Below are positions 51,225-64,000 of a stretch of DNA of 64,000 bases, piece after piece; position 1 is the stretch's first letter, and every line of letters starts with the position of its first letter. Where the stretch lies: NCBI GenBank assembly GCA_025056865.1, contig JANWVO010000027.1:62001-126000 (forward strand). The letters run 5' to 3'. The position numbers and the translations under genes were made by a program. Source of the stretch: Bryobacteraceae bacterium. Its GTDB lineage: Bacteria; Acidobacteriota; Terriglobia; Bryobacterales; Bryobacteraceae. Under the pieces are notes generated by a model. It worked only from the letters and a program-made list of their open reading frames with translations. It had not been told where the DNA came from and ran no database searches.

Positions 51225-54200
51225 ATGCAGCAGATGACGACGAAGCTGAGATCGCGTATGGCGGCCGCCCTGTGCGTTGCGGCCGCATCGATGCTGTCAT
51301 TGGGGATGCCCGCTGCGGCGCAGATCCTCTATGGATCGCTGACCGGGAACGTCACCGATCCGAGCGGCGCCGCCGTAGTGGGTGCGACGGTCACCATTAC
51401 CCAGGTGGAAACCAACCAGAGCCGGACGACAACGACCAACGACGCCGGCATTTATAACTTCCCGACGATTCCGGGCGGCACCTACGAAGTGCGGGTGCAG
51501 GCCCAGGGATTCCGGACGCTGATCCGGAAAGATGTGGTCATCTCGACCAACACGGTCACGCGCGTGGACGTGCAACTGGAGCTGGGCGCGGTGACCGAGT
51601 CGATCCAGGTGACCGGAGAAGCGGCGCTGTTGCAGACCGACCGCGCGGAGGTGCGGCGGGAGCTGCCGACGGTGACGCTGCTGAATACGCCGATTCCTCC
51701 GGGCCGCAATTACCAGCAGCTTTTCAACCTGCTGCCGGGGTTCACGCCGCCGCGCAACGCGCACTCGGTGCCATCGAATCCGTCGCGCGCCCTCCAGTTC
51801 GAGGTGAACGGGACGGTGGCGGCGTCGAACAACATCCGGCTGGACGGCGCCACGCAGTACAACATCTGGCTGCCGCACATTACCGCCTACGTGCCGGCGC
51901 TGGAGTCGATCGAGGCGGTGAACGTGGTGACGAACGCGTTTGATGCCGAGCAGGGCCTGGCGGGCGGCGCGGCGATCAACGTGCAGATCAAGAGCGGCAC
52001 CAATGAGCTGCATGGCTCGGCCTTCTGGTACCACGACAACAACAGGACCAAGGCGCGGCCGTTCTTCCTGCCCTACGACCAGGACAAGCCGAAGCGCGTG
52101 TTCAACCAGAACGGCGGCACCGTGGGCGGACCCATCCGGAAGGACCGGCTGTTCTACTTCCTCAGCTACGAAGGCACCTACGACCGCCAGTTTGCCGGCG
52201 GCCTTTCGACGGTGCCGACGCCGCTGATGAAGAGGGGCGACATGAGCGAGTCGCCGCGGCTGGTCTACGATCCGGACTCGGGCGACAACCAGGGGCGCAA
52301 CCGGATTCCCTTCCCGAACCAGATTGTGCCGGAGTCGCGGTGGGATCCAATTACGAAGAAGCTGCTCCCGCTGCTGCCGAATCCGACCGCGCCCGGGCAG
52401 ATCACGCAGAACTACTACTCCCAGGGCAACTACCTGTTCGACCGGCACACGCTGGACAGCAAGTTCAACTGGAACATCAACGACCGCATGACGTCCTACG
52501 TGCGGTTCAGCTTCCTTGACTACTCGATGACCGCCCCGACGCGCTTCGGCCGGGAGCTGCTGGGTTCGGCGCTGGCGGGCGGCAACCCGGGGCAGGGCTA
52601 CGGCAACACCTACAGCGTGACGGCGGCCTACACCTACACGATTTCGCCGACGTTCGTGATCGACACGAACTTCGGCTACACGCTGATGGACACCAACGTC
52701 GAGCAGTACGGCATCGAGCGCAACATCGGCCAGGAGCTGGGCATTCCGGGCACGAACGGCTCGCGCCGGATCGAAGGCGGCTGGCCAGGCTTCGGCATCA
52801 GCGGCTTTGACACCTTCGGCCTTGCCGACAACTATATGCCGTACTTCCGTCATGACCCGCAGTTCCAGTGGGTGGGCAATGGCAACTGGACGCGGGGCAA
52901 GCACAACATCCGGTTTGGCGCCGAGCTGGGCTGGCAGCACCTGAACCACTCCCAGCCGGAGTTCTACGGCGGCAGTTGGGGCGCGCCGGGCGGATTCGGC
53001 TTCGGCGGCGGCCCGACCACGCTGAACGGCGGCCCGGCTTCCAACCAGTGGAATGCGATGGCGTCGTTCCTGCTGGGCCGCGCCACGCAGATCGGCAAGA
53101 TCTACCAGTGGCCGGACGAGTACTCGACGCGCACGTCGATGCAGAGCCTTTACATCCGCGACCAGTGGCAGGTGAACCGCCGGCTGACGCTGAATTTCGG
53201 CACGCGGTGGAACTACTTCCCGATGCCGACGCGCGCCAACCGGGGCCTGGAGCGCTACTTCTTCCCCGGCGACCCGAACTACGCGGACAGGGTGATGGTG
53301 TGCGGCGTCGGGTCGCTGCCGAAGAACTGCGGCGTGGAGGTGAGCAAGAAGCTGTTCGCTCCCAGCGTCGGCATCGCATACCGCATCAACGACCACACGG
53401 TGCTGCGCACCGGCTACGGCATCAACACGGACCCGTGGAACATCGCCCGCGCGATGCGCACGAACCATCCGCTGCTGACGGCGCAGACCGTGAACGCGCC
53501 GAATGCGTTCTGGTGGGCCGGGCTGCTGAAGGACGGCATCCCGGTGATTTCGCCGCCGGACATCGGCAACGGCATTGTGGACCTGCCGCGCAACGTGGTG
53601 TTCAACACGCTGGACAGCCGGTTCATGCGGGGCTACATCCAGAGCTGGAACTTCACCATTCAGCGGCAGCTTCCGCTGAAGCTGGTGGCGAGCGCCGGCT
53701 ATGTGGCCACGCGGATGACGGGCTTCCTCGGCTACGAGGAGCGCAACTACGGCCTGGTGGGCGGCGGCGCGGCGAGCCGCATCTACTTCCCGCAGACCGG
53801 GCGGAACGTCTCGCTGGCGGTGGTGAACCGGCTGGGCAACAGCGCGTATGATTCGCTTCAGGTGACGCTCGACCGGCGCTTCAGCGAGGGCTTCCTGCTG
53901 AACACCGCCTACACGTGGTCGAAGTGCATCTCGCTGGCCGGGTTCGGCAACAGCGGAGACCGGGTGGAGATCAAGATCCCCGCCTACTACCGGCTGAACC
54001 GGGCGCAGTGCGGCATCCACACGCCGCACCGCTTCACCGCCAACGGCATCTGGCAGCTACCGTTCGGCCAGGGCAAGCGCTGGGCGCAGAGCGGCGCGGC
54101 GGCGGTGATTCTCGGCGGCTGGCAGATCAACGGCGCGCTGATGCTGCAAAGCGGCAACCCGTTCACGGTGAGCTCTTCGGGCGCCTCGCTGAATGCGCCA

Positions 54201-54614
54201 GAGAGTTCGCAGCGCGCCGACTGGATCGGCGGCAACGAGAAGCCGCGCAAGCTCGGCGGCGTGGGCCGCGGCATTCCGTTCTACGACTGGCGGCAGTGGG
54301 CCCCCGTCACCGAGCCGCGCTTCGGCACGGCCGGCTACAACATCCTGCTGGGGCCGGGCATCGTCAACCTCGACCTCGGCCTGTTCCGGCAGTTCCGGAT
54401 CACGGAGCGCGTGAACCTGCAATTCCGCGCCGAAGCGTTCAACGCCACCAACACGCCACACTTCGCCAACCCGAGCGGCAACATCTCGAACCTCGTGCTG
54501 AACAGCGACGGCAGCTTCCGCACAGGCGTGTTCGAGGTGACCGGCGTGCGCAACACGGGCCGCGAGGGCATCGACGAGCGGGTGTTCCGCTTCGGCCTGC
54601 GCCTCGGCTGGTAA
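51225..54614 (+). CDS. Oar-like TonB-dependent receptor with carboxypeptidase-regulatory domain
   Basis: 1129 residues with a signal peptide ending near AAAQ (residue 33). Residues about 37-120 form a carboxypeptidase-regulatory-like beta domain (GSLTGNVTDPSGAAVVGATV, DAGIYNFPTIPGGTYEVRV). A plug-like part follows (NYQQLFNLLPGFTPP, NNIRLDGATQYN), then a beta barrel ending RFGLRLGW, with a terminal aromatic residue as outer-membrane proteins have. Such receptors are abundant in Acidobacteria and import or bind large ligands. The cargo is unknown. The gene stands alone between its own promoter and terminator. Confidence 0.9.
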   Translation: MQQMTTKLRSRMAAALCVAAASMLSLGMPAAAQILYGSLTGNVTDPSGAAVVGATVTITQVETNQSRTTTTNDAGIYNFPTIPGGTYEVRVQAQGFRTLIRKDVVISTNTVTRVDVQLELGAVTESIQVTGEAALLQTDRAEVRRELPTVTLLNTPIPPGRNYQQLFNLLPGFTPPRNAHSVPSNPSRALQFEVNGTVAASNNIRLDGATQYNIWLPHITAYVPALESIEAVNVVTNAFDAEQGLAGGAAINVQIKSGTNELHGSAFWYHDNNRTKARPFFLPYDQDKPKRVFNQNGGTVGGPIRKDRLFYFLSYEGTYDRQFAGGLSTVPTPLMKRGDMSESPRLVYDPDSGDNQGRNRIPFPNQIVPESRWDPITKKLLPLLPNPTAPGQITQNYYSQGNYLFDRHTLDSKFNWNINDRMTSYVRFSFLDYSMTAPTRFGRELLGSALAGGNPGQGYGNTYSVTAAYTYTISPTFVIDTNFGYTLMDTNVEQYGIERNIGQELGIPGTNGSRRIEGGWPGFGISGFDTFGLADNYMPYFRHDPQFQWVGNGNWTRGKHNIRFGAELGWQHLNHSQPEFYGGSWGAPGGFGFGGGPTTLNGGPASNQWNAMASFLLGRATQIGKIYQWPDEYSTRTSMQSLYIRDQWQVNRRLTLNFGTRWNYFPMPTRANRGLERYFFPGDPNYADRVMVCGVGSLPKNCGVEVSKKLFAPSVGIAYRINDHTVLRTGYGINTDPWNIARAMRTNHPLLTAQTVNAPNAFWWAGLLKDGIPVISPPDIGNGIVDLPRNVVFNTLDSRFMRGYIQSWNFTIQRQLPLKLVASAGYVATRMTGFLGYEERNYGLVGGGAASRIYFPQTGRNVSLAVVNRLGNSAYDSLQVTLDRRFSEGFLLNTAYTWSKCISLAGFGNSGDRVEIKIPAYYRLNRAQCGIHTPHRFTANGIWQLPFGQGKRWAQSGAAAVILGGWQINGALMLQSGNPFTVSSSGASLNAPESSQRADWIGGNEKPRKLGGVGRGIPFYDWRQWAPVTEPRFGTAGYNILLGPGIVNLDLGLFRQFRITERVNLQFRAEAFNATNTPHFANPSGNISNLVLNSDGSFRTGVFEVTGVRNTGREGIDERVFRFGLRLGW

Positions 54615-54633
54615 CGGCAGACCGGAAACAGCA

Positions 54634-54672
54634 AGGGCGGCCCCGGAAGGGGCCGCCCTTTGTGTCTGTTTG
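54634..54672 (+). terminator. Strong intrinsic terminator
   Basis: AGGGCGGCCCC, loop GGAA, GGGGCCGCCCT, then TTGTGTCTGTTT. An 11-bp perfect stem with a T-rich tail, 19 bases after the TonB receptor stop. It also lies after the end of convergent kgd. Confidence 0.85.
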
Positions 54673-54724
54673 CTGGCGCCCGGGCCGCAGCGGGCGCGGC
54701 GGATGGAGCGATGCGGGCGCGCCG

Positions 54725-57700
54725 TCAGGCCTCCGGCGTGGCGCCCTCGATGGCGAGATTGCGGCGCTTCTCCACGACGCGGTAGCGGCGCGGGCGCACC
54801 GGGCTGCCGCCGCTGAAGGCGTCCTCGATGACGGCCGCCTGCTCCTGCGCGTGGCGCCTGGCGGAGCCGGTGCTCGGGGCCGCGGCCTCGGGCCGTCCCG
54901 CATAGCGGAGCGTGCGGCGCGACTGTGCCAGCAGCGGCTCGAGCCGGTCGCGCACGAACAGATACGCACCCTGGTTGCGCGGCTCCTCCTGCACCCAGAC
55001 GATCTCGGCGGTCGAAGGATAGCGCCACAGCGCGGCCTCCACTTCCTGCTCCGGCCACGGATAGAGCTGTTCGATGCGGACGATGGCGGTGTTCCACGCC
55101 TCGCGCTTCTCGCGCTCGGCCATCAGCTCGTAGAAGATCTTGCCGGTGCAGAAGAGCACTTTCACGACACGGTCGGGCTGCACCGGGCCGGGGTCGGACA
55201 GCACCGGCTCGAAGAAGCCGCGGGTGAGGTCGTGCAGCGTGCTGACGCATTTCGGGTGGCGCAGCAGGCTCTTGGGCGTGAAGATGACGAGCGGCTTGCG
55301 CATGCCGCGGCGGTCGTGGCCGCCGTACATCTGGCGGCGCAGCAGGTGGAAGTATTGCGCCGGCGTGGTGGCGTTGCAGATCTGCATGTTGTTTTCGGCG
55401 GCGAGCTGGAGGAAGCGCTCCACGCGGGCGCTGGAGTGCTCCGGCCCCTGCCCTTCGTAGCCGTGCGGCAGCAGCAGCACGAGGCCCGAGGGCTGGCCCC
55501 ACTTGGCTTCGCCGGCGGCGATGAACTGGTCGATCATGATCTGCGCGCCGTTGGCGAAGTCGCCGAACTGCGCCTCCCAGATGGTGAGGGTGAGCGGGTC
55601 GCCGAGCGAGTAGCCGTATTCGAAGCCCATCACTGCGTATTCGCTGAGCGAGCTGTCGTAGACCTCGAAGCGCGCCTGGCGCGGATCGAGGTGCTGGAGC
55701 GGCGTGTAGGGCTCGCCGGTGTTGTAGTCGAAGTACTCGAGATGGCGCTGGCTGAAGGTGCCGCGGCCGCTGTCCTGGCCGCTGAGCCGGACCGGCGTGC
55801 CCTCGAGCACCAGCGTGCCGAAGGCGAGCGTTTCGGCCGCAGCCCAGTCCACCGGGCCGCCCCTGAGGATTTCGCGGCGCTTCTCGATGAAGCCCTTCAG
55901 CTTCGGATGCAGCGTGAAGCCTTCGGGGAAAGTGGTGATGCCTTCGATAACCTTTTCAAGCAGCGCCTCGTCCGCGGCCGTGCGCGGGCAGACCGCGGGC
56001 AGCGTGGACTCCTCGTATTCGGTGACCTCCTGGAGCTCCCACTTCTCGCCCTTGCGGACCGCCTCCTCGTGCGCGGCGTTGAGCGCGTCCTGGATCTGGC
56101 GCTGGATGCGTTCGACGGCGTCCTTCGTCACCACGCCCTCGCGCAGCAGCCGCTTCGTGTAGATCGTGGCCGGCGACTCCTTGGACTTGATGGTGCGGTA
56201 CATCACCGGCTGCGTGTAGCTGGGGTCGTCGCCTTCGTTGTGGCCGTACTTGCGGTAGCAGACGAGGTCGATGACGACGTCCTTCTTGAACTTCATCCGG
56301 TAGTCGAGGGCGATCTGCATGGCGCGGGCGCATGCCTCGGGGTCGTCGCCGTTCACATGGAGGATGGGCGCCTGGACCATGCGCGCCACGTCGGTGCAGT
56401 AGGTGGAGGAGCGGCTCTCTTCGGCGGTGGCGGTGAAGCCGATCTGGTTGTTGATGATCAGATGGATGGTGCCGCCCGTCGTGTAGCCCTTGAGAAGCGA
56501 GAGATTCAGCGTCTCGGCCACCACGCCCTGACCGGCGAAGGCTGCGTCGCCGTGCACGAGGACGGGCAGGACCTTCTCGCGCTTCTCGTCGCCCATGAAG
56601 GTCTGCTTGGCGCGGACGATGCCTTCGACAACCGGGTTCACCGCCTCGAGATGGCTGGGGTTGGGCGAGAGGGAAACCTTGATTTCACGGCCCGAGGAGG
56701 TGCGCTGGACGCCGCTGGCGCCGAGGTGGTACTTGACGTCGCCCGAGCCCTGGGCCATGTCGGGATCCACGACGCCCTCGAACTCGCCGAAGACCTGCGC
56801 CATCGACTTGCCGATGAGGTTGGCCAGCACGGTGAGACGGCCGCGGTGGGCCATGCCGATGACGATCTCCTGCACGCCGGCCTCGGCGGCGCGCTCGAGG
56901 CATTCATCGAGAATGACCATGGCGCTCTCGCCGCCTTCGAGCGAAAACCGCTTCTGCCCGACGAAGCGCGTGTGGAGGAAGTTTTCGAAGCCCTCGGCCT
57001 GAAGGAGGCGCAGCAGGATGCGCCGCCGCGTGGTGTCATCGAGCGGCCAGTTGTTGGCCTGCGGCTCCATGCGCTCCTGGAGCCAGCGCTTCTCCTCCGG
57101 GTGCTGGATGTGCATGTACTCGCAGCCGAGGCGGCCGCAGTAGGTCTGGCGGAGCTGCTCGATGATGTCGCGGAGGCGCGCCAGCTTCAGGTCGCCGGGG
57201 ATGGCCAGGCTGCCGGTGAGGAACTGCCGGTCGAAGTCCCAGATGGTGAGGCCGTAGTTGGCCGGGTCGAGCTCGGGATGGTAGGCGGGCTTCGTGCCGA
57301 GCGGGTTGAGGTCGGCGATCAGGTGGCCGCGGACGCGGTAGGCGTTGATCAGTTGCAGCACCGCGGCCTGCTTGGCGATCTCGCCCATGCGCTCGCCGTC
57401 GCCGAAGGCGGCGGCTCCGCCGCGGTCGACCTCCCAGCGGAAGGGCTGGTAGGGCATCTGCGTCTGCTCGAAGATCTCGTCGTAGAAGCGGTCTCCGCCT
57501 TCGAGCAGATCCTGGAGCTTCCCGAGGAAGGCGCCGCTTTCGGCTCCCTGAATGATGCGGTGATCGTAAGTGCAGGTGATGGTCATCACCTTGCAAAGGC
57601 CGAGCCTCGCGCGCAGCTCTTCGCTGACGCCCTGGAAGCCGGCGGGCCAGTCGATGGCTCCGGTGGCGATGATGGCGCCCTGGCCGGGCATGAGCCGCGG

Positions 57701-58441
57701 CACGCTGCCGACGGTGCCGACGGTGCCGGGGTTGGTGAGCGATACCGTGGTTCCCTGGAAATCCTCCGGCGTCAGCTTGCCCTTGCGGGCGCGCTCCACG
57801 ACGTCGTCGAAAGCGCGCAGGAATTCATAGAACGACATCTCGCCCGCGTTGCGGATGCACGGCACGAGCAGCGAGCGGTGGCCGTCCTTGCCGGGCACGT
57901 CGACGGCGATGCCGATGTTGATCTGGCGGCGCACGATGCGGTGCGGCTGGCCGTCGACCTCGGCGTAGGCGTCGTTGATCACCGGCACGTGTTTGATGGC
58001 GCGCACGACAGCCCAGGCGATCAGGTGCGTGTAGCTGATCTTGGACTGGCCGTGCAGCGTGCGCCAGTGGTTCAGCAGGCGGCGGTTTTCGTCAATGACC
58101 TTCACCGGGATCACCCGCTGGCTGGTGGCGGTGGGCACCTTCAGGCTCGCCGTCATGTTTTCGGCGATGCGGGCGGGCGCTCCTTTCAGCGGGACGAGCT
58201 GCTCGCTGGGGCTGAGCGTCAGCGCCGGCACCATGACGGGCGCGGCAGGCTGCGCCTGATCCGGCGGCGGGAGCACGACGGTCTGGCTCACCGGCGGCGG
58301 AGTGACTTCGGGGGGCGGCTCGGCAGCGAAAACCTGCTGCCAGCTTTCGTCCACCTGGCCGGGCCGGTTGACAAACTCCTGATACAGCTCTTCCTCGAGC
58401 CAAGAGTTGACGGTGGGTCTTTGCTTGGGTTCAATCGCCAT
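54725..58441 (-). CDS. kgd: Kgd/OdhA-type multifunctional 2-oxoglutarate decarboxylase
   Basis: 1238 residues. An N-terminal segment (RPTVNSWLEEELYQEFVNRP) and Pro-rich linker lead to an E2-like acyltransferase domain (about residues 90-320) with TCTYDHRIIQGAESG. The thiamine-dependent E1 domain (about 350-1238) has VLHGDAAF-type and HGYEGQGPEHSSARVERFL motifs of OGDH E1. There is no lipoyl domain. Relatives (mycobacterial Kgd, corynebacterial OdhA) produce succinate semialdehyde or work with a separate lipoyl partner. It links the citric acid cycle at 2-oxoglutarate. The gene stands alone here. Confidence 0.93.
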   Translation of the reverse strand: MAIEPKQRPTVNSWLEEELYQEFVNRPGQVDESWQQVFAAEPPPEVTPPPVSQTVVLPPPDQAQPAAPVMVPALTLSPSEQLVPLKGAPARIAENMTASLKVPTATSQRVIPVKVIDENRRLLNHWRTLHGQSKISYTHLIAWAVVRAIKHVPVINDAYAEVDGQPHRIVRRQINIGIAVDVPGKDGHRSLLVPCIRNAGEMSFYEFLRAFDDVVERARKGKLTPEDFQGTTVSLTNPGTVGTVGSVPRLMPGQGAIIATGAIDWPAGFQGVSEELRARLGLCKVMTITCTYDHRIIQGAESGAFLGKLQDLLEGGDRFYDEIFEQTQMPYQPFRWEVDRGGAAAFGDGERMGEIAKQAAVLQLINAYRVRGHLIADLNPLGTKPAYHPELDPANYGLTIWDFDRQFLTGSLAIPGDLKLARLRDIIEQLRQTYCGRLGCEYMHIQHPEEKRWLQERMEPQANNWPLDDTTRRRILLRLLQAEGFENFLHTRFVGQKRFSLEGGESAMVILDECLERAAEAGVQEIVIGMAHRGRLTVLANLIGKSMAQVFGEFEGVVDPDMAQGSGDVKYHLGASGVQRTSSGREIKVSLSPNPSHLEAVNPVVEGIVRAKQTFMGDEKREKVLPVLVHGDAAFAGQGVVAETLNLSLLKGYTTGGTIHLIINNQIGFTATAEESRSSTYCTDVARMVQAPILHVNGDDPEACARAMQIALDYRMKFKKDVVIDLVCYRKYGHNEGDDPSYTQPVMYRTIKSKESPATIYTKRLLREGVVTKDAVERIQRQIQDALNAAHEEAVRKGEKWELQEVTEYEESTLPAVCPRTAADEALLEKVIEGITTFPEGFTLHPKLKGFIEKRREILRGGPVDWAAAETLAFGTLVLEGTPVRLSGQDSGRGTFSQRHLEYFDYNTGEPYTPLQHLDPRQARFEVYDSSLSEYAVMGFEYGYSLGDPLTLTIWEAQFGDFANGAQIMIDQFIAAGEAKWGQPSGLVLLLPHGYEGQGPEHSSARVERFLQLAAENNMQICNATTPAQYFHLLRRQMYGGHDRRGMRKPLVIFTPKSLLRHPKCVSTLHDLTRGFFEPVLSDPGPVQPDRVVKVLFCTGKIFYELMAEREKREAWNTAIVRIEQLYPWPEQEVEAALWRYPSTAEIVWVQEEPRNQGAYLFVRDRLEPLLAQSRRTLRYAGRPEAAAPSTGSARRHAQEQAAVIEDAFSGGSPVRPRRYRVVEKRRNLAIEGATPEA

Positions 58442-58591
58442 GGCTGTTATTTGGATCGGGAGGGATGCGCCCCTGCTGTTCCCAGTGTATCAATGGCTTG
58501 CGGAGGGCATCGCTGTCTATTTGGACGCAGCCGGGCGCCTGCCCGATTCCTGCACTCATTGTCCTCCGCGCCTCCCTACAATGGAAGGGGC

Positions 58592-59203
58592 ATGCGGATC
58601 CTGGTGTTTTCCGACATTCACGGGGATGCGGCGGCGCTGGAGCGGCTGATGGCGCAGGAGGCGGATGTCTATGTAGCGGCGGGCGATCTGGTGAGCTGGG
58701 GCCGCGGGCTGGACGCGCTGGCGCCCATCCTGAAGAGCCGCGCGCCGCGGGTGTGGGTGCTGCCGGGCAACCACGAACACGAGTCCGACATCGAAGGCTT
58801 CTGCGGTCGCCACGGGCTGAACGCGCTGCACGGGCGCTGGTTCGAGATGGATGGGTGGCGCATCGCCGGCCTGGGGCACTCGTCCCCGACGCCCTTCCAC
58901 ACGCCGGGCGAATACACGGAGGAGGAAATGGCACAGCGGCTTGCGCCCTTCTCTGGCCTGAAGCCGCTGGTGCTCATCTGCCACTGCCCGCCGCTGGGCA
59001 CGCGGCTGGACCGCGCCGCCTTCGGGCGCCACATCGGCAGCCGCGCCGTGCGGGAGTTCCTGGAAAGGGAGCAGCCCGCGTGGTTCGCCTGCGGGCACGT
59101 GCATGAAGCGGCAGGCGTGGTGACGCAGATCGGGGCCACGCGCGCGGTCAACGCGGGCAAGGGCGGCTACCTGATCGAGCTGGGGCCGGCTCCGGCGGCG
59201 TAG
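58592..59203 (+). CDS. Calcineurin-like metallophosphoesterase
   Basis: 203 residues from ATG 58592. The metal-binding blocks are complete: FSDIHGD, AAGDLVSWG, GNHEHE, and HCPPLGTRLD then GHVHEAAG. This is the YfcE-like or MPE small-protein layout. The substrate may be phosphodiesters; it cannot be specified. It is divergent from kgd and precedes an epimerase gene by 74 bp. Confidence 0.85.
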   Translation: MRILVFSDIHGDAAALERLMAQEADVYVAAGDLVSWGRGLDALAPILKSRAPRVWVLPGNHEHESDIEGFCGRHGLNALHGRWFEMDGWRIAGLGHSSPTPFHTPGEYTEEEMAQRLAPFSGLKPLVLICHCPPLGTRLDRAAFGRHIGSRAVREFLEREQPAWFACGHVHEAAGVVTQIGATRAVNAGKGGYLIELGPAPAA

Positions 59204-59277: not shown

Positions 59278-60147
59278 ATGAAGTTTGGTGTCAATACGCT
59301 TCTGTGGACCGCCTCCTTTTCGCTGGAGGATGTGCCGCTGCTTGAACGGATCCGGCAGTGGGGTTTCGACGGGGTGGAGATTGCGCGCTACGACTTCCGC
59401 GCCTTTCCGGCGCGCGTGCTGCGGGAGGCGGTGCGCAACGAAGGGCTGGAACCGGCGCTTTGCTCGGCACTGACCGGAGAGCTGAGCCTGGCGGCTGAAT
59501 CGGCTGAGACAAGGCGCGCGGCGGCAGACTTCCTGCGGCGCGCCATCGAGGCGGCGGCCGAGCTGGGCAGCTCCGTGCTGGCCGGCCCGTTCGTCTCCGC
59601 CGTGGGGCTGCTGCCTGGCCGGCGCCCCGCCGAAGACGAGTGGAAACGCGCGGTGGAGGGCGTGGCGGAGCTGGTTCCCCTGCTGCGGGAGCATGACGTG
59701 ACGCTGGCGCTCGAGCCGCTGAACCGCTTCGAGACGTATCTGCTGAACACGTGCGCGGAGATGCGGCGCTTCTGCGACGAGGTGCACGACCCTTACGTCG
59801 GCGCGCTGTTTGACACCTTCCACGCCAATATCGAAGAGAAATGTTTCGGCGAAGCGGTACGCGCCCTCGGGCCGAGGCTTCAGCATCTCCACGCCTGCGA
59901 GAACGACCGCGGCACGCCGGGGACAGGCCACGTGGCCTGGGACGAGGTCTTCGCCGCGCTGCGGGAGACGGGCTATGACGGCTGGTGCGTGATCGAGAGC
60001 TTCGGGTCGCGCGTGCCGGAGATCGCCGCCGCGGCCTGCGTCTGGAGGGACTTCGCGCCGGACGCGGAAACCCTGGCGCGGGAGGGGCTGGCCTTCCTGC
60101 GCGACGCCGCCGCCCGCGCGATGGGAGCGGCGGCGTCCGCAGTGTGA
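59278..60147 (+). CDS. Sugar epimerase/isomerase of the D-tagatose 3-epimerase type
   Basis: 289 residues, a xylose-isomerase-like TIM barrel. Metal ligands of the DTE family are placed as expected: Glu in TLALEPLNRFETY, Asp in GALFDTFHANIEE, His in HLHACENDRG and Glu in WCVIESFG. Members epimerise ketoses such as tagatose, psicose or fructose at C3. It fits the sugar-oriented gene content nearby. It ends 10 bp before the convergent amidohydrolase gene. Confidence 0.85.
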   Translation: MKFGVNTLLWTASFSLEDVPLLERIRQWGFDGVEIARYDFRAFPARVLREAVRNEGLEPALCSALTGELSLAAESAETRRAAADFLRRAIEAAAELGSSVLAGPFVSAVGLLPGRRPAEDEWKRAVEGVAELVPLLREHDVTLALEPLNRFETYLLNTCAEMRRFCDEVHDPYVGALFDTFHANIEEKCFGEAVRALGPRLQHLHACENDRGTPGTGHVAWDEVFAALRETGYDGWCVIESFGSRVPEIAAAACVWRDFAPDAETLAREGLAFLRDAAARAMGAAASAV

Positions 60148-60157
60148 AGGCAGGCGG

Positions 60158-61480
60158 TCACGGGCGCGCCATGTAGCGCCTGTACAGGCGCGTGTGCTTC
60201 GATTCGAGATCGACGGGCACGCCCTTGATGAACATCATCCGGATCTGGGTGCGGATCTCGAGCGGGTCGCCGTCGGTGACGATCAGGTCAGCGTACTTGC
60301 CTTTGTCGATGGACCCGTACTGATCCGCGACGCCCCAGATTTCGGCGGCGTTGAGCGTGACCGACTTCAGCGCCTCGTCATAGGGCAGCCCGAATGCGGC
60401 CGCCTGCCCCGCCTGGAACGGCAGGTTGCGCGCGAACTGCACGTTGAAGCTGGCGAAGCAGAACTTGACGCCGGCCTTGTGCAGTTGCGCGGCGAGCGTG
60501 AAGGGCTCGTCATAGGCGTCGTCCTCTTCGAGAGGGGTCACGAAGGGAGTTCCGAGGACGACCGGGATGTTGCGCTTCGCGATTTCGTCCAGCGTCTTGC
60601 CGGGCCGCCGCACGCCGGCGAGCACCACTCTGACCCGTTCGCGGGCGGCGAATTCGAGCGCCTCGCGGATCTCGCGCTCGCGCGCGGCGGTGATCATGAG
60701 CGGCAGCCTGCCGTCGAGAACGGGGATCATCGCCTCATAGCGCAGATCGGGCGCGATGGCCTCCCCGGCGGCCTTCGCCTTCTGGTAGCGGCGGGCGGCG
60801 TCGAAGAAGTCCTGGATCTTCTGCACCTGCATCTGCTGGTTGCGCCGCGCTTCGGCGAAAGTGACGCGGCGCGGGGCGAGGCCCGGGATGAGGCCTTCGA
60901 GATCCGGGCCGCCGCCGCGCCCGGTCTGAATGACGGGCCACGTCATCTGCATGGCGGCGCCGCGGCGGATTTCCATCTCTTCCCAGGTCCAGCCGTCGAG
61001 GTGGACGAGCGAGGCCTGCCCGGCGATCAGCCCGCCGGAGGTCGAGCCGCGCGCTCCGCCCGTGGTGCCGGGCGTCACCAGGACGGTGGTGATGCCGTTG
61101 GCGCGCACGACGGGGATGTGCTCGCTGGACGGGTTGATGGCGATGAGGGCGCGCAACTGCGGGTTGAAGTCGCCGATTTCGCCCGTGTCGACGGTTTCGC
61201 GGATGCTGGCGATCTCGGCGAGGCCGACGGGCGAGCCTGAATCGATCAGGCCCGGGTAGACGTGCAGGCCGCGCGCGTCGATGACCTTCACCTTGCCGCG
61301 CGGCGCCACCTTCGGGCCGATCTCGGCGATCTTTCCATCGATGACCAGGAGGCTCGCATTCTGGATCGCCGGGCCGCTGACCGGGTGAATGGTGGCGTTG
61401 CGCAGCAGGAACGAGTCCTTCTCGCCGCCCCATGCAGCGGCGCAGAGGGCAAGGGAAAGGATCAGTCGCATCTTCCTCAT
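60158..61480 (-). CDS. Secreted amidohydrolase-family protein lacking the HxH motif
   Basis: 440 residues with a signal peptide (MRKMRLILSLALCAAAWG). The family frame is clear: GKIAEIGPKV near 50, YPGLID at 75-80 and LNAAEIWGVADQYGSIDKGK near the end. The HxH pair expected right after PGLID is replaced by SGS (residues 81-83). The protein may be inactive, a subunit, or bind metal differently. It is the last of three tandem amidohydrolase genes and overlaps the upstream one by four bases (ATGA). Confidence 0.75.
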   Translation of the reverse strand: MRKMRLILSLALCAAAWGGEKDSFLLRNATIHPVSGPAIQNASLLVIDGKIAEIGPKVAPRGKVKVIDARGLHVYPGLIDSGSPVGLAEIASIRETVDTGEIGDFNPQLRALIAINPSSEHIPVVRANGITTVLVTPGTTGGARGSTSGGLIAGQASLVHLDGWTWEEMEIRRGAAMQMTWPVIQTGRGGGPDLEGLIPGLAPRRVTFAEARRNQQMQVQKIQDFFDAARRYQKAKAAGEAIAPDLRYEAMIPVLDGRLPLMITAAREREIREALEFAARERVRVVLAGVRRPGKTLDEIAKRNIPVVLGTPFVTPLEEDDAYDEPFTLAAQLHKAGVKFCFASFNVQFARNLPFQAGQAAAFGLPYDEALKSVTLNAAEIWGVADQYGSIDKGKYADLIVTDGDPLEIRTQIRMMFIKGVPVDLESKHTRLYRRYMARP

Positions 61481-62835
61481 GACGGCCTCCTGTTCTGGGG
61501 GACGGCCTGCTTCTGCTGGTCCTGAAGCTTGCGCCGCAGGCCCTCCTTTTCAGCCTCGATCTTCGGCCGCCGGCTGATGTCTTCGTCGCGGTCGAAGTAC
61601 TGGCGGCCGTCGATGAACACTTTCTCGACCTTGGCGTAGACCGACAGCGGGTGCCTGTCGTAGATGACGAGGTCGGCGTCCTTGCCCGGCTCGATGGAGC
61701 CGACCCACTGGTCGATCTGAAGCTGTTTCGCCGGGTTGATGGTGATCATGGCGAGCGCTTCGTCCTCGGTGAGGCCGCCGTACCTCATCACTTTGGCGGC
61801 CTCGGTGTTGAGCCGCCGCATCAGCTCGGCGCCGCCGGCGTCGTCGGAGTTCAGGCTGACGAGCACGCCTTTGCGGTGCATGATGGCGGCGTTGTAGGGG
61901 ATGGCGTCGTAGGCCTCGATCTTGTAGCTCCACCAGTCGGAGAAGGTGCTGGCTCCGTGGCCGCGCTCGGCGATTTCGCGCGCCACCTTGTAGCCTTCCA
62001 GCACGTGCTGGAGCGTGACGCCGCGGATGTTGAAATCGTCGAAGACGCGCAGCAGCATCAGGATTTCGTCGGCGCGGTAGCAGTGGGCGTGCACGAGGCG
62101 CCTGCCTTCGAGCACTTCGACCAGCGGCTCGAGTTCCAGGTTGCGCTTCGGCGGCAGGACCTTTTCGCCGCGCGCGCGGCGCGCTTCGTAGTCCTTCCAT
62201 TCGCGCTGATAGGCGCGGGCGCGGGTGAAGGCGTCGCGGATGACGTCCTCGACGCCGAGCCGGGTGCCCGGGTAGCGCAGGTTCTGCGGCGACTGGAGGC
62301 CCGGGATTTGCAGGCCCTGCGGCGAGCCCTGGCGCTTGACGTTCTCGCCGAGCGCCATCTTGATGCTCGGCTTCGCCTTGTCGTAGACGAGGCCGCGCGC
62401 GTCCGCGCCCCAGCGCAGCTTGAAGACGACGTTCTGCCCGCCGATGGAGTTGGCGCTGCCGTGCATCGAATTGCACACGGTGACGCCGCCGGCCATGGCG
62501 CGGTAGATGGAGATCGACTCGGGGTTGAGCATCTCTTCGACGCTGACCATCGAGCTGACGCTGACGCTGGACTCGTTGATCGAATCGAGCGCGATGTGCG
62601 TGTGCGCGTCGATGATGCCGGGGATGACGTGCTTGCCGCTGGCGTCGATGATGCGCGCTCCGGCGGGCGTCATCACCTTCTCGCCGACCTCGGCGATCTT
62701 GCCATCGCGGATGACGATGGAGCCTTTGAACGTGCCTTTGGTCACCGTGTGGACGGTGCCGTTCTGAATGACGATCACATCAGCGGTGCAGAGTGCGCCC
62801 GCGCTGACGGCCAGTGCAAAGATCCATGCCCGCAT
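61477..62835 (-). CDS. Secreted amidohydrolase with intact metal site
   Basis: 452 residues with a signal peptide (MRAWIFALAVSAGALCTA). Metal ligands are present: IDAHTH (His 78 and 80), HAHCYRADE (His 249 and 251), LQHV (His 277) and LNSDD (Asp 331). It resembles imidazolonepropionase-like or prolidase-like amidohydrolases. It is the middle member of the trio, starting three bases after the upstream stop and overlapping the downstream start. Substrate unknown; presumably acts in the periplasm or outside. Confidence 0.85.
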   Translation of the reverse strand: MRAWIFALAVSAGALCTADVIVIQNGTVHTVTKGTFKGSIVIRDGKIAEVGEKVMTPAGARIIDASGKHVIPGIIDAHTHIALDSINESSVSVSSMVSVEEMLNPESISIYRAMAGGVTVCNSMHGSANSIGGQNVVFKLRWGADARGLVYDKAKPSIKMALGENVKRQGSPQGLQIPGLQSPQNLRYPGTRLGVEDVIRDAFTRARAYQREWKDYEARRARGEKVLPPKRNLELEPLVEVLEGRRLVHAHCYRADEILMLLRVFDDFNIRGVTLQHVLEGYKVAREIAERGHGASTFSDWWSYKIEAYDAIPYNAAIMHRKGVLVSLNSDDAGGAELMRRLNTEAAKVMRYGGLTEDEALAMITINPAKQLQIDQWVGSIEPGKDADLVIYDRHPLSVYAKVEKVFIDGRQYFDRDEDISRRPKIEAEKEGLRRKLQDQQKQAVPQNRRPS

Positions 62836-62838
62836 CGC

Positions 62839-64000
62839 TTACTGTTCCTCCCCTTCTTCCGAAGTGGGCCCGCGCCCCGGCGCGCCGGCAGGCGGCGTGG
62901 GCAGCTCGGGCTCCGGCAGGTAGCGCACGCCGTCGATGAAGACCATGCGCACGCGGGTGCTGTCGTCGAACAGGTCGCCGGTGGCGACGACGAGGTTGGC
63001 GATCTTGCCGCGCTCGATGGAGCCGAGGCGGTCGGCGACGCCGAAGATCTCGGCGGCGTTCAGCGTGAGGGCTCGGAGGGCGTCCTCGCGCTTCAGGCCG
63101 CGGTCGATGGACTGCTTCAGCGCGCGCAGCACGGCGCGCGGCGTATCCATGCCTTCGCTGCTGACGGCCCACCGGACGCCCGCGGCGGAGAGCGCGGCAG
63201 GCGAGGTGGGCGCGAGATCGCGGATGAGGAGCTCGCGGTAGCTCTCTTCCTGTTCGGGATCCGCGTCGCGGTCGCGCGCGGGCCAGCGCACGTTGAGGAT
63301 CGCCGGCGTGCCGGCCTCCTTCAGGCGCTGGGCCATCTCATAGCCGCGCACCACGCCGTACAGCACCGCGGGGGTCTTGAGATCTGCGGCGAGCTTCAGC
63401 ATCCGCTCCATCTGGACAGGGCCTTCGGCGGGCAGCAGCACGCGCTTCGCGCCCAGAATGCCTTCCACGGCGCGGTCGTAGGCGGGACGCGGGTAGTTGA
63501 CGGGGTCGGAGGCGTAGAGCGCGAGCGCCTGCCGGTAGTGTTCCGCATCGAGCCAGAGCTGGCGGAAATAGGCCATGATGCCCATCGGCGTCGACGGGAA
63601 GCCGGTGTAGCCGGAAGGCCGCAGCGCGAGGTACAGGCCTGCGTCCGGTGTGACGACCATTTCGCCGGCCGTTTTTCCGCCGAGGTTGACGACGGCTCCG
63701 TGGCCGGCAACGATTCCCTGGCGGGGGAAGACGACGGCGGTGGTGAAGCCGGCGTTGCGCGCCTGGCCGAGGCGCGGATCGGAAGGCTGCACCTGGTCGG
63801 CCGCCCTGACCCAGCTTAGCGTGCCCGGGCGGTCCTGCGGACCCCAGGAGCGCGTCTGCGGCTGTTGCTGCGGCTGTTGAGGCTGCTGCGGCTGGAGCGG
63901 CTGCTGCGGCGGTTGCGCGCCGCGGGCCGCGGCCTGCTGCTGCGCCTGCGCGGCCTGCGGCAGGCCCCAACTGCTGAGCGCATCGATCAGGCCCGGGTAG
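62839..64000 (-). CDS. Amidohydrolase-family protein, partial; Gln/Pro-rich insert, HxH missing
   Basis: 387 residues visible; the N-terminus lies beyond the right edge. The first residues read YPGLIDALSSWGL, so the HxH pair is absent here too. A Gln/Pro-rich run of about 35 residues (QPPQQPLQPQQPQQP) follows, then the family body and LNAAEIFGVADRLGSIERGK. It is the first gene of the trio. Its stop is three bases upstream of the next ATG. Confidence 0.75.
   Translation of the reverse strand, partial: YPGLIDALSSWGLPQAAQAQQQAAARGAQPPQQPLQPQQPQQPQQQPQTRSWGPQDRPGTLSWVRAADQVQPSDPRLGQARNAGFTTAVVFPRQGIVAGHGAVVNLGGKTAGEMVVTPDAGLYLALRPSGYTGFPSTPMGIMAYFRQLWLDAEHYRQALALYASDPVNYPRPAYDRAVEGILGAKRVLLPAEGPVQMERMLKLAADLKTPAVLYGVVRGYEMAQRLKEAGTPAILNVRWPARDRDADPEQEESYRELLIRDLAPTSPAALSAAGVRWAVSSEGMDTPRAVLRALKQSIDRGLKREDALRALTLNAAEIFGVADRLGSIERGKIANLVVATGDLFDDSTRVRMVFIDGVRYLPEPELPTPPAGAPGRGPTSEEGEEQ

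Follow-up and report, generated by a model that had tools for sequence, protein, structure and literature searches.

The 64,000-nucleotide stretch analyzed here (the window) comes from an assembly of a Bryobacteraceae bacterium (GCA_025056865.1, contig JANWVO010000027.1, positions 62,001 to 126,000), and its end cuts into a minus-strand set of three collinear amidohydrolase-like genes, called A, B and C in this order. Gene A, the upstream degenerate member, occupies 62839..64000 and runs past the window to G000:C21:126242 (what would be window position 64242); the first 242 bases of the gene, which lie outside the window, were taken from the genome sequence, and its product has 467 amino acids. 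Gene B (61477..62835, 452 amino acids) is the complete amidohydrolase and the presumed catalytic subunit, and gene C (60158..61480, 440 amino acids) is the downstream degenerate member. At the A/B junction (62836..62841, minus strand) the TAA of A and a 3-base gap precede the ATG of B, and at the B/C junction (61477..61480, minus strand) the stop codon of B overlaps the start codon of C in an ATGA. By eye, a purine-rich Shine-Dalgarno-like stretch lies ahead of the starts of both B and C, and each of the three proteins begins with a hydrophobic leader; all three are predicted to be exported.

The three proteins pass the Pfam cut-off of 25 bits for PF01979 (A 45.6, B 77.7 and C 41.5 bits). Their best match in the PDB is the same entry, 3ooq, which bears the molecule name 'amidohydrolase' and which we take to come from Thermotoga maritima; the match is nearly full-length for B (200 bits), with 110 bits for C and 84 bits for A. 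Inspected by eye, 3ooq and B have in common the HxH, K, H, H and D residues as well as the GSAN and KMAxGEN motifs. 3ooq is a complete chain, whereas A and C have no metal site. Besides 3ooq, only weak sequence matches to hydantoinase-like and prolidase/carboxypeptidase-like enzymes were found, from which a peptide-like or cyclic amide may be guessed as the substrate of B. Among the best 25 families per protein, none of the NCBIfam equivalogs (hutI, nagA, D-hydantoinase, XaaProDiPepCaul and others) was reached, and scores fell far below the cut-offs, e.g. 64.0 for hutI on B against 298.15. Profile-profile alignment in global mode matched C to B over 413 columns and A to B over 399, with a probability of 100, and these alignments suggest that A, B and C all adopt a fold of a TIM barrel with a small beta domain.

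Active metalloenzymes of the amidohydrolase superfamily, of which dihydroorotase is also a member, carry an HxH motif followed by later His, His and Asp ligands. Held against this definition, B has the ligands of an active metalloenzyme, and A and C do not. All five core ligands are present in B: H78 and H80, which with T79 make up the HxH codons (62596..62604, counted from the gene start), H251 (62083..62085), H277 (62005..62007) and D331 (61843..61845), all on the minus strand, with H251 aligning by eye to the first His of MHAHRADD in 3ooq. K159 (62359..62361, minus strand) is a candidate bridging carboxylated lysine. Where B reads DAHTHI, A reads DALSSW and C reads DSGSPV, and neither A nor C retains any of the five. 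A first reading of the window from its letters, hereafter the original prediction, had noted that the middle gene keeps every ligand, which holds, and that the outer two have lost the first His pair; the latter is true (SGS in C, ALS in A) and understated, as the whole five-ligand site is gone.

The same division runs through the relatives of these genes. Based on profile-profile mapping of 115 A, 137 B and 133 C domains (domains shorter than 330 amino acids or with X left out, as were four B and five C under score thresholds), the five core ligands and K159 are present in 137/137 B, the window's own included. Among the A relatives, 91 keep none of the core ligands, 19 keep one and five keep two; among the C relatives the corresponding figures are 54, 66 and 11, with three ligands kept in a further two, and K159 is kept in 1% of each class. 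Of the 34 columns conserved in at least 99% of B, seven (G45, G117, G133, T365, A369, G379 and G384) stand at 94-100% in A and C; the five ligand columns drop to 0-36%, N87, K159, Y253 and K305 are also largely lost, and the others are mixed.

To place these proteins among bacteria, we compared their distribution across phyla. In the window's phylum (E ≤1e-20), the B query matched 70/149 genomes, its own included, and the C query matched the same 70 by comparison of handles by eye; the A query matched 60/149, including at least nine genomes in which coordinates identify a cross-hit on B or C (G006, G022, G059, G065, G082, G097, G107, G123 and G137). Under the stricter E ≤1e-70 used for other phyla, B-like genes were found in 65/118 Bacteroidota, 35/98 Planctomycetota and 6/150 Pseudomonadota, each phylum sample including its centre genome, itself chosen for having B. 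The best 80 of 386 loci on named contigs fall to Bacteroidota (52), Planctomycetota (10), Acidobacteriota (6), Pseudomonadota (6), Verrucomicrobiota (2), Gemmatimonadota, Fidelibacterota and Ignavibacteriota (one each), with one unplaced; related loci thus occur in at least eight named phyla, most often in Bacteroidota. The original prediction had proposed, as a check, to look at conservation of the trio across Acidobacteria. B and C do travel together in that phylum, and the set extends far beyond it.

At these loci, complete and degenerate domains go together. Across 179 loci we counted 181 complete and 312 degenerate domains, all five ligand columns being aligned in 126 of the 312, with unaligned ones scored as lost. 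With complete domains written as asterisks and domains below 100 bits left out, the locus patterns are A*C (124), *C (46), *CA (3), A* (3), AA*C (2, where A is split in two) and *C*C*C (1); for these patterns L067 was dropped as the same contig stretch as L122, and L195 as the same place as L081. L067 was likewise left out of the profile-profile alignments, the trees, the fusion, leader and neighbor counts, and the divergence and dN/dS comparisons. In 176/179 loci every complete domain is directly followed, on its own strand, by a degenerate domain, and in the other three a degenerate domain lies in front. These three are the A* loci, two of which (L147 and L158) end with their contigs, and the third (L106) has its C elsewhere. 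Four of the *C loci (L104, L124, L134 and L171) have their A side cut by a contig end. No locus mixes strands (0/179), and in 159 cases no more than 414 bases separate the frame of a complete domain from the next family frame. Whether the genes occur singly, without association, had been named beforehand as a check on the original prediction; every one of the 179 complete-domain loci holds at least one degenerate homolog, and fusions recur.

A second, more distant system, B'-C', has its complete gene first and its degenerate gene second, as in B-C. It was found at loci L093-L095, L179-L191, L193 and L194, often in genomes also holding the B system, and the K159 column is Cys in five of its complete members. 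L081, also listed as L195 (G006:C4), holds three complete/degenerate pairs in tandem, the last fused in a frame of 835 amino acids.

Fusions were tallied in the 80 named loci and in 60 loci of the window's phylum, the latter picked from listed matches rather than sampled at random. A and B share one open frame in 67/80 named loci (frames of approximately 1000 amino acids, followed by C in 64 of the 67) and in 11/60 phylum loci. B and C share a frame in 2/80 named and 14/60 phylum loci, and three separate genes are found in 21/60 phylum loci. Once, A, B and C form a single frame (L072:3622-7878, 1419 amino acids, counted under both A-B and B-C), a fusion that suggests a 1:1:1 stoichiometry. On a B tree of 103 rows made by a quick method (57 from the phylum set and 46 of the 80 named rows), the A-B state changed at least three times, or five if rows cut by contig ends are included, and the B-C state at least five times without L081 and six with it. 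A hydrophobic stretch precedes A in 109/119 cases, separate B in 58/63 and separate C in 119/124; at fused junctions it was found in neither A-B (0/78) nor B-C (0/16), as one would expect were all parts located in the same compartment.

We next considered the relationships among the classes in a tree of 74 rows, drawn from 23 chosen loci together with L081 and L093-L095. The A sequences form one clade (100/100). A further split (99/97) groups A with the C of trios and leaves B, B', C', the L081 copies and the two-gene lineages' C on the other side. A single branch (support 90/91, slightly short of the tool's star) divides 29 rows, each with all the ligands, from 45 rows that are degenerate. 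The tree does not itself infer a root; if this were placed on the complete side, the active/dead pair would have come first and A later, from the dead partner. The core of the system is probably the active-plus-dead pair of B with C, and A probably arose later as a duplicate of the dead partner. In comparisons without L081, mean divergence is 0.666 in A, 0.639 in C and 0.475-0.498 in B, and the divergences of the three are correlated (r 0.855-0.900). Ratios of nonsynonymous to synonymous substitution rates (dN/dS) in close pairs, L081 again excluded, are 0.031-0.262 for A (12/13 computable) and 0.036-0.196 for C (12/15 computable), rough values given that dS exceeds 1 in many pairs.

Since the sets are kept together in several phyla and their genes are often fused, the dead copies probably belong to the working one as integral partners. 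We favor, with a probability of roughly three in four, a physical hetero-complex in which B would be the sole catalyst and A and C its pseudoenzyme partners. The original prediction had proposed a hetero-oligomer in which one subunit is active and two are modified; this is still the best reading, with partial support from the pairing in 179 loci and the recurrent fusions. Under such a scheme, A, B and C would be exported subunits of one hetero-oligomeric hydrolase, in which B would bind one or more metals and hydrolyze an amide bond outside the cytoplasm. A and C would be paralogs that keep the fold without the metal site, with C, and A where present, acting as obligate partners. They may serve in assembly, in shaping or gating the active site of B, as a chamber wall, in regulation or in substrate capture.

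The competing explanation that fares best, and which we nevertheless consider unlikely, takes up the second option of the original prediction, neofunctionalised binding proteins. A and C would then be such proteins, or else enzymes with a different chemistry, working in the pathway of B but not in a complex with it. Both classes do have conserved columns of their own (at least 85%, with a letter that differs from B or no B column), 14 in A and 19 in C, among which the acidic ones reach 0.97-1.00, and co-transcription by itself would account for the operon. Repeated fusion into one chain, in various combinations, argues against this, as does the degenerate partner in 179/179 loci, in B'-C' and in the three tandem pairs of L081. 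Moreover, no His or Cys column in A or C is conserved enough for another metal or Cys site.

Much less probable still is activity of A and C themselves, based on ligands from other parts of their own chain or on ligands shared between subunits. A His does occupy the H251 column in 48/133 C, and some C hold two or three ligands. However, the HxH pair is kept in 0/115 A and 0/133 C, no A exceeds two of the five ligands and no C exceeds three. A search for a replacement His column found none that is strongly conserved, the best-kept reaching 0.48 in the 115 A and 0.68 in the 133 C, compared to four at 1.00 in the 137 B. This also answers a further check on the original prediction, that the His pair might be supplied elsewhere in the outer proteins.

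The idea of A and C as duplicates of B in decay can be practically dismissed: they diverge faster than B, but their dN/dS is well below 1 where computable, their open frames are maintained across phyla, A is a single clade (100/100), the tree shows the degenerate lineages to be of the same age as the complete ones, and some residues are conserved solely in the degenerate classes.

Several observations weigh against a hetero-complex. Adjacency and fusion need not mean contact, since they can also stem from co-expression or a shared pathway, and correlated divergence is also expected from shared descent; the dN/dS values are rough and in part not computable. In G522 (L106) C and A-B are on separate contigs, as are A and B-C in G024 (L044). 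A is absent from thirteen phylum loci of the B-C-only kind, although the sequence is there, and is therefore not needed everywhere. Degeneration is also graded, as the two C with three of the five ligands come from B-C-only lineages. As the loci were found via homology to B, solitary A or C genes would be under-sampled, which the searches with A and C queries partly counter. Lastly, in 140 loci no conserved neighbor pointing to a substrate was found.

Complexes of an active enzyme with a dead homolog have precedents. In the M16B heterodimers, the subunits are of approximately 50 kDa and only one carries the metal motif; examples are the mitochondrial processing peptidase, SPH2681/SPH2682 and TTHA1264/TTHA1265 (PMC12731061). 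In the mitochondrial processing peptidase the homologous subunit is essential even though it lacks the metal motif, TTHA1264 and TTHA1265 are adjoining genes, and further members of M16 consist of one chain of approximately 100 kDa (PMC12731061). A, B and C resemble the M16B heterodimers in subunit size, in that only one subunit has a metal motif, and in their neighboring genes. They differ in belonging to an unrelated family, in often having two dead subunits per active one, and in that the complex is deduced from genes. The M16 family is absent from the Pfam matches of A, B and C, and only the logic is M16-like. For the role of the partners, the M16B heterodimers are nonetheless the model on which we would bet.

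Two further cases indicate that dead chains can be necessary for activity. In the Pseudomonas aeruginosa ATCase-pseudo-dihydroorotase, an inactive dihydroorotase homolog is required for the activity of its partner (PMC7053772), although this partner is a transcarbamoylase and not an active homolog of the dead chain. In Trypanosoma brucei, AdoMetDC is activated by heterodimerisation with a dead paralog, the prozyme (PMC5201418); this differs from A/B/C in being another enzyme, with a single dead partner, in a eukaryote.

In the open-license literature of PubMed Central, with long result lists covered in part, we found no description of cross-phylum, repeatedly fused sets of live and dead amidohydrolases; passages of one report concern other amidohydrolases, the PF07969 bile salt hydrolases (PMC13081902). 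The dead-partner principle is already known, and the sets described here, in which a live amidohydrolase is joined by one or two dead paralogs, would be a new variant of it. We would give even odds to a broader proposal, that these are ancient and widespread hetero-oligomeric metallo-amidohydrolases whose catalytic subunit is obligately accompanied by one or two dead paralogs, split once and co-inherited since, with fission and fusion in several phyla, and with the dead subunits forming part of a chamber or gate.

Such proteins are generally annotated just as 'amidohydrolase family protein', a label that would mistake two of the three domains of a trio for enzymes. Expressing B alone may give no activity. 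The natural split, A-B, B-C and A-B-C forms offer ready constructs for work on what dead paralogs do for a metalloenzyme and on how such partnerships evolve.

In the genomic surroundings of the 140 loci, the commonest neighbor clusters are DUF3810 (17), SpoU (15), RelA/SpoT (12), M20 (12) and M48 (11). These clusters have Flavobacteriaceae representatives and resemble local synteny, and therefore give no clue to the substrate; at the Flavobacteriaceae loci L135, L155, L160, L161, L174 and L175, the set lies near DUF3810, SpoU methylase, RelA/SpoT, M20 and M48 peptidase genes. In the window, a plus-strand gene for a protein of 289 amino acids (59278-60147), presumably of the sugar isomerase/AP endonuclease 2 type, is convergent with gene C. 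Further away, a minus-strand gene (54725-58441) encodes a protein of 1238 amino acids that we take to resemble a 2-oxoglutarate dehydrogenase/decarboxylase with an acyltransferase part, and the plus-strand frame of 1762 amino acids that overlies it (53915-59203) is probably an antisense artefact of high GC content.

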